Source: Halorubrum halophilum (GTDB lineage: Archaea; Halobacteriota; Halobacteria; Halobacteriales; Haloferacaceae). Taken from it: a stretch of DNA of 64,000 nucleotides. The notes below the pieces were generated by a model, which saw only the letters and a program-made list of their open reading frames with translations, was not told the DNA's origin and made no database searches. Made by a program: the position numbers and the translations under genes. Each line of letters opens with the position of its first letter. Position 1 is the first letter of the stretch. Positions 7,868-9,633 of the stretch are shown piece after piece. The stretch is taken from positions 62,001 to 126,000 of the forward strand of contig NZ_BBJP01000013.1 in the NCBI RefSeq assembly GCF_000739595.1. The letters run 5' to 3'.

Positions 7868-8011
7868 GCCGGGGACAGGCGCCGACTGCGGCGCCGGACC
7901 GACGAGTACGCCGACCACCGCGTCTGACCGAACGACCGCGATCGAGGTCGACACGACTCCGGTGACTCACAGTCGCGTCGCGGGGGATCGGCGTGTCGCC
8001 CGCGTCGGTAC

Positions 8012-9550
8012 TCAGACGGACCTGTCCATGACTTCGGCCAGCTGTCGGTCTATCTCCTCGACTTGCTGGGTGAGGCGCGAGACCATCTCCGTCTGACTCT
8101 CGTTTTCGTCTGCGATCTCCGAGATTTCCTCCGTGATGACGCGAGCCCGCTGTGAGACATCGTCAACGACGCTTGCCATCTCTTCGGCTACGCCCGCTTG
8201 CTCGTCCGTTGCGTCTGCTATTTCGCTGATCCCACCTTCGGTCTGTTCTACCGCCGACAGAATCTGTTTCTGATTTTCGAGGACTCGTTGGATATCCTCT
8301 CTCGCAGACTGAATCTGGTCATTGGCCGACTCCATCTCCGTTGTGGTTTGGCCAGCTTTCCGTTTGATCGTCGTGACGATCTCTTCGATTTCGGCGGCTT
8401 GGTCCTGTGATCGAGTCGCTAAGTCCTTTACTTCGTCCGCGACGACCGCGAATCCGTCACTGTCGCTTCGCGCAGCCTCAATATTGGCGTTCAACGCCAG
8501 CATGTTCGTCTGCTCGGCGATACTGTTAATCACACCGACGAACTCCTCTACCTGCTCGATCTCGTCCCGTAGATCAGCCACGTCTTCCGCTACTGTTGCT
8601 GACTTTTCAGCGGTTTCGTCCACCTGATCAATGACCTCCGTCACAGTCTCCACGGATTCCTGTGCCAGTTCCCGCGACTCGGCGCTCTGCGTATTCACTT
8701 CGTCGGCACTGGAGGCGATCTCTTCGACGGTAGCGCTGAACCCGGAGACGTCTTCCTGGGCGCTGTCGAGTTCGTCCGCTTGGTCGGAGACGAGCTGGGT
8801 GATCTCGTTCGATCGGCTCGCGATCTCGCTCGTCGATGCCCCCAGTTCTCCCATCGATGCCTCGACGTTATTCGACAGTTCTTGCTGGAGTTCGCTCAGT
8901 GATTCACGCTGCTCGACGACCGTTGTAACATCGAAGAGCAACTCGACCGCACCAACGGTCTCACCCGTCGGCGTCTGTATCGGCGTCCCGATCGCGCGAG
9001 CGTGTGCTTGTGATCCGTCTGGTCGCTCCGCAGATCGGAACTCTTCTTCTCGGATCGGCGTTCCAGTGCGAACGACCTTCTCGGCGAGCGTTTCGTCTTT
9101 TCCTTTCGTCTGCTCTGTTGAATCCACAGAGGGCAGCGGGATCGGGTCATTCTGTACACAATTCAGGACCGCTGCCGAGAGAATGTAGAGATGGACTCTT
9201 GCCAGGGAGCGCACGGATCGAGATCGCTGGGTGGATCGATCCAATCATCGACAACGAAAAACGAGATAACCGCGTCTTCAGCGATCGTGATCACGGTGCC
9301 GTCATCGGATTCAACAGAGCACTTTCGTCCCGAACACATCATATGCGTTTGTTCCGACCGCTTCGCTTGCAGGGAGGCCCAGCAGATTTTCCGTGGCCGC
9401 GTTCCATTGGGTGATATCGCCATTAGCATCGACGACGAATGCTGCCTCAGGAAGTTCCGAAATGAACTGCTCGAACGTATTTCGCCAAAATGCACCGTCC
9501 GGTTCGGCACTCGCCTGCTGGAGATGTGAATTCTGCGTGGCCTGAGCCAT
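8012..9550 (-). pseudogene. PAS-domain soluble halobacterial transducer (methyl-accepting type), disrupted by a MITE
   Basis: Two in-frame pieces make one gene. The 5' part (9550 down to 9330) encodes a PAS start: FISELPEAAFVVDANGDITQWNAATENLLGLPASEAVGTNAYDVFGTK. The 3' part (from 9102 down) continues with KDETLAEKVVRTGTPI, a second half of the PAS fold, and a long coiled-coil signalling domain whose hairpin tip is INSIAEQTNMLALNANIEAAR, the CheA/CheW contact region. Between them lies a 211-bp element plus an 8-bp target duplication, 219 bp in all. That insert is a multiple of three but brings TGA stops. Removing it restores a 439-residue ORF. No membrane helices or HAMP domain are seen, so the intact protein would be a cytoplasmic transducer. 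Confidence 0.92.
9111..9321. mobile_element. 211-bp MITE with 15-bp terminal inverted repeats and 8-bp target duplication
   Basis: The left end is TGCTCTGTTGAATCC (9111-9125) and the right end is its perfect reverse complement GGATTCAACAGAGCA (9307-9321). The flanks carry a perfect 8-bp direct repeat, CTTTCGTC, at 9103-9110 and 9322-9329. The interior has no transposase and no credible ORF, so it must have been moved in trans. Base composition is lower in GC than the surroundings. An 8-bp duplication fits IS5-family (ISH1 group) elements of haloarchaea, but other families also make 8-bp repeats and no parent element lies in this window. Confidence 0.94.
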
Positions 9551-9633
9551 ATCGATTGGCTCCGATCTGACTACATGTGTGTTTCGTCGGTATTATTGAA
9601 ACTGATAGATTGCGAGTCGAGCCACCGATCGCC

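Follow-up and report, generated by a model that had tools for sequence, protein, structure and literature searches.

The window, by which we mean the whole 64-kb stretch of Halorubrum halophilum DNA that was analysed, carries on its minus strand a transducer gene that begins with an ATG at 9550 and ends with a stop codon at 8012. The gene lies in two pieces. The 5' fragment (9311-9550, minus strand) encodes 76 codons of a PAS domain, followed by VLC and a stop inside the end of an inserted element, and the 3' fragment (8012-9102, minus strand) encodes the remainder of the PAS domain and the MCP signalling domain. The two are separated by an insert of 211 bp with perfect 15-bp terminal inverted repeats (TIRs) and a perfect 8-bp target site duplication (TSD), the whole arrangement spanning 9103-9329. 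The left copy of the TSD, CTTTCGTC, occupies 9103-9110 and matches the right copy at 9322-9329 in 8 of 8 positions. The left TIR, TGCTCTGTTGAATCC, runs from 9111 to 9125 on the plus strand and its perfect partner (15 of 15, as the reverse complement) from 9307 to 9321 on the minus strand. The core between them (9126-9306) is non-coding and conserved at the family level, without significant similarity to the interior of the insertion sequence (IS) described below. A transposase reading frame is absent from the insert. The first-pass annotation had given the positions of both TIRs, the 8-bp duplication and the length of 211 bp, and all of these proved exact to the base.

In the 64-kb window, only this site combines a perfect inverted repeat of 15 bp (span 100-1500) with a perfect direct repeat of 8 bp immediately outside it, and the combination was not found in any of 30 Markov-resampled windows. 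In the genome as a whole, the TIR sequence with at most one mismatch occurs 13 times, compared to 0 occurrences of the same pattern read backwards. This anatomy is thus not due to chance. Judged by its sequence the insert is a MITE, and the earlier proposal to that effect held up on every count: the element has TIRs and a TSD, is short, lacks a transposase, is present in multiple dispersed copies and has ends in common with an autonomous IS.

We also considered whether an assembly error or contamination had placed a repeat within the gene, given that the assembly is a draft of 103 contigs with an estimated contamination of 3% and contains seven related repeats. The site is, however, interior to a 225-kb contig, and a TSD that is perfect over 8 bp bears the signature of a biological process. 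Collapse of a repeat was rejected as a source of the artefact because the window copy matches no other copy in the genome exactly (the best is 94% identical). We regard an error of this kind as extremely improbable and treat the insert as genuine.

Both halves of the gene share one reading frame. When the flanks were joined in silico, they yielded 439 codons with no stop, and the predicted protein matched both MCPsignal (PF00015, E=1.5e-31) and PAS (PF00989, E=2.2e-14); the 5' fragment is a 100% match to query residues 1-76, after which the orthologues run on without a gap. The transducer is of the soluble PAS-MCP type, transmembrane segments having been judged absent by eye only. The insert contributes four in-frame stops, of which the first lies at 9313-9311 inside the TIR and the last at 9247-9245. 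As assembled, the allele is null, since these four stops are put into the PAS domain and cut it, and a loss of function would be expected. The main lines of the first-pass annotation are borne out here: a soluble transducer gene is split (PF00015 and PAS matches, intact orthologous loci), its joined flanks give an uninterrupted PAS and MCP-signal protein of 439 residues, and only stop codons inside the insert break a frame that the two halves share.

The frame of the gene reopens past 9245, and a putative open reading frame of 410 codons (8012-9244, minus strand) starts at a TTG within the MITE and extends into the 3' fragment. It could be argued that translation from this TTG at 9244, or from an internal start, makes a new protein, a sensor-less MCP module that acts on CheA. 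The open frame does join the MITE to the MCP domain, and a further short MCP frame, of 308 aa, is present in the genome together with a CheA/CheW pair. Against this, the start is a TTG that four stops precede, the first ATG start (8854) is well within the coding part, and no TATA-like motif is present in the MITE on the transducer (minus) strand. A product of this sort seems very unlikely, and a null allele is the reading that we carry forward.

Close orthologues of the transducer were found at 14 loci in 12 genomes. Eleven of these genomes are Halorubrum and hold 13 of the loci, and the remaining locus belongs to another genus. The insert was absent from all 14. Twelve of these loci were aligned in full and showed no gap at the insertion point, while in the other two an open frame of 443-444 codons matched query residues 1-163 continuously; at none of them were the same 219 bp (insert plus one copy of the duplication) in place. 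Two genomes, G016 (L059, L158) and G030 (L064, L159), each contain two paralogous copies of the transducer, which suggests repeated acquisition. In G048, an intact orthologous transducer has a partial MITE (L061:3180-3276, about 98 bp, 73%) at a distance of about 1.3 kb.

The gene is missing from most of the genus, with a close orthologue in only 11 of 51 other Halorubrum genomes. At window 7868-9633, it lies between a purC-like gene with a SAICAR synthetase domain and a gene for a Dna2-like nuclease-helicase. In most relatives with enough flanking sequence, these two neighbours are adjacent without the transducer. The spacer of roughly 380 bp that then separates the Dna2-like and purC-like genes had no similarity to the transducer stretch in those examined (L154). 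The GC content of the transducer stretch is 55-58%, compared to 71-72% for its neighbours. By its distribution and composition, the transducer is an accessory, horizontally acquired gene. The genome encodes ten MCP-domain proteins, this transducer and nine others, together with a CheA-like protein and a CheW; the cell should tolerate losing one accessory receptor, and the gene is probably dispensable.

The MITE belongs to a family that is widespread in Halorubrum. Matches (E<=0.001) were obtained in 41 of the 97 genomes searched, nearly all of them Halorubrum, a count in which some of the short matches are the ends of full insertion sequences. The same element occurs at dozens of places across the genus. 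Neither of the two findings that the first-pass annotation had named as refuting it, orthologues with the 219 bp in place or a lack of other elements with these ends, was therefore obtained. Extraction of near-complete copies gave 28 elements (209-213 bp), of which 18 are 212 bp long; seven have perfect 8-bp TSDs and one has a TSD with a single mismatch. A clear TSD is lacking in most other copies. This genome has about seven copies, the window copy and others that are 94, 81, 78 and 73% identical to it, with two at about 60%. Copies are also carried on Halorubrum plasmids and on one Haloplanus plasmid, and none was found in phages or viral contigs, either in a search of a phage collection or in two pattern scans. 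When the flanks of 27 copies were joined, only the window copy restored a verified gene; three others (L032, L043 and L050) sit in long frames that may be genes, and the rest appear intergenic. At L031, a partial MITE (1408-1498, the first 91 bp, 85%) directly precedes a complete one (1499-1710), a tandem or nested insertion.

A single strand of the MITE can fold with its ends paired (z of -3.6 as RNA and -2.9 as DNA), and it is these inverted ends that explain why the single copy has a low folding energy. The MITE was considered as a structured RNA and rejected, as a search of Rfam returned nothing near threshold. A conserved internal RNA was likewise rejected: an alignment of 26 copies folds mainly via the terminal repeats, and the covariation term is only -0.5 kcal/mol.

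A search for a full-length IS with the same ends, suggested by the first-pass annotation, led to an IS5-family element of 935 bp in the same genome (G000:C35:14696-15630). It encodes a 276-aa DDE transposase that matches PF01609 and scores above the cut-off for NF033579 (IS5 family), and its TIRs differ from those of the MITE by at most one mismatch. The similarity extends inward from the termini, reaching 44 bp into the left end of the MITE (9111-9154, 77-84% identity) and 35 bp into the right end (9287-9321, 86-89% identity). The possibility that the MITE core is an internal remnant of this IS was discarded, as no significant match was found. The 935-bp element has no TSD at its own flanks in this genome; perfect 8-bp TSDs flank four siblings that are 93-98% identical to it and lie in other Halorubrum genomes. 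A TSD of 8 bp would agree with placement in the ISH1 subgroup of the IS5 family. The 935-bp element is thus a likely source of the transposase for the MITE, which would act in trans, yet with ends that are only 77-89% identical it may not be the actual donor. The same genome contains two further IS5-type elements of 940 and 929 bp (L010:1415-2354, L011:1466-2405, L015:1454-2382, L016:1454-2382) with related ends and perfect 8-bp TSDs; their transposases are 39-46% identical to that of the 935-bp element.

The copy nearest to that in the window is intergenic and lies in another Halorubrum species (G008:C27:35232-35442; L029:1501-1711). The two are identical at 210 of 211 positions and share a 1-bp deletion relative to all other aligned copies, whereas the DNA of the Dna2-like gene is only 83-84% identical between the two genomes. 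The common ancestor of the two copies must therefore be much younger than the split of the species, and so the element has moved between species. Unlike the window copy with its perfect TSD, the G008 copy has none, and a simple insertion does not account for that. For the transducer itself, most pairings with an orthologue gave a dN/dS of about 0.06-0.11, a level not raised above that of the intact copies, and no relaxation of selection since the insertion was visible in a comparison where dS exceeds 1, which gives little power for a recent event. No further stop or indel was found in the 439 joined codons. From the identical TSDs, the lack of a second lesion and the unraised dN/dS we infer that the insertion is recent. 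The first-pass annotation had also called it recent, and the near-identical copy in a species with a core identity of 83-84% agrees with this. The MITE family has apparently been active in Halorubrum in recent times.

The insert plus one copy of the duplication comes to 219 bp, a multiple of three, which had been offered as the means by which the two halves are kept in one frame. The arithmetic and the shared frame are correct, but the length is a coincidence, as the family norm is 212 bp and a typical member plus 8 would give 220. That 211 plus 8 is divisible by three results from the 1-bp deletion, which is common to one other copy and older than the insertion in the window. Precise excision, in which the insert and one copy of the duplication are deleted, restores the frame at any insert length, so that the divisibility of 219 is irrelevant to excision. 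Departure of the element by transposase that left both duplications behind would add 8 bp and shift the frame.

It had further been proposed that excision switches the taxis receptor back on. In its full form this is a reversible switch, in which precise loss of the MITE between the 8-bp duplications turns the receptor on and gives rise to phase variation in populations. Precise deletion would restore the gene, as the TSDs are perfect and the halves intact, and the ability of a single strand to fold with its ends paired also favours the idea. In haloarchaea, trace-free removal of elements via the target duplication has been proposed from genome comparisons, including deletions between repeats of 7-9 bp, and has been connected with the reported tendency of transposon mutations in Halobacterium to revert at high rates (PMC3119063). 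This was the one relevant proposal that we found on precise excision in haloarchaea, and a literature search on excision of insertion elements or revertants in Halobacterium returned nothing. In Sulfolobus, however, no more than 14% of altered sites could be attributed to precise excision of an IS, imprecise loss being far commoner (PMC4390865). With one genome per species compared, the insert was absent from every orthologue found, and no excised allele, footprint or pair of occupied and empty sites within a species was seen. The length that keeps the frame arose by accident, through a deletion older than the insertion, and the copies of the family are mostly intergenic, which does not suggest a regulatory use within genes. 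An on-switch is thus unsupported, and we consider it very improbable. Reversion at a low rate, as for any insertion flanked by a TSD and with nothing special to this gene, is plausible.

Taken together, the results make it highly probable that the locus records a recent insertion of a non-autonomous MITE, mobilised by the IS5 family, into an accessory, acquired PAS-MCP transducer gene. An IS5-family transposase, that of the 935-bp element, would have acted in trans on the MITE, and the 211-bp element would have inserted into the transducer gene with an 8-bp duplication made in the process. Four stops would then have entered the PAS domain to give a null allele of the transducer. The insertion would persist because the transducer is dispensable, being one of ten MCP-domain proteins and missing from most of the genus. 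A deletion between the two copies of the 8-bp duplication could reverse the event at whatever background rate the host has, without being programmed.

The locus is an unambiguous but unremarkable example of insertional inactivation. For chemotaxis it is of little consequence, as a null allele of an accessory receptor. Its value lies in documenting a MITE family of Halorubrum with a plausible autonomous partner and spread across species. The locus is also a natural construct, with intact halves, a perfect TSD and an identifiable empty site, for measuring trace-free, TSD-mediated loss in haloarchaea.

Among known systems, the transducer resembles other soluble PAS-MCP taxis transducers of haloarchaea in its PAS and MCP signalling domains, and the 14 orthologous loci are uninterrupted (438-447 aa), in contrast to the allele in the window. 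The MITE resembles haloarchaeal IS5-family insertion sequences such as the 935-bp element in its 15-bp TIRs, its 8-bp TSD and the match at both ends, but it lacks a transposase and has an unrelated core. The HqIRS MITEs of Haloquadratum walsbyi are likewise short, non-coding and multicopy, with a core unrelated to the full transposon, TIRs in common with it and TSDs of the length that it generates, and one copy interrupts a CRISPR spacer (PMC3119063). Going by the published description, the Halorubrum family differs in genus and sequence, and the part that it has in common with its autonomous element goes beyond the outermost bases, to about 44 and 35 bp of the ends. A small MITE within an archaeal gene is also known from ORF108 of the Sulfolobus plasmid pTC1 (PMC4390865). 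The pTC1 element is 142 bp long, has imperfect ends, is plasmid-borne and belongs to the Crenarchaeota, and its empty-site variants are known from sequenced populations, whereas the empty sites described here come from one genome per species.
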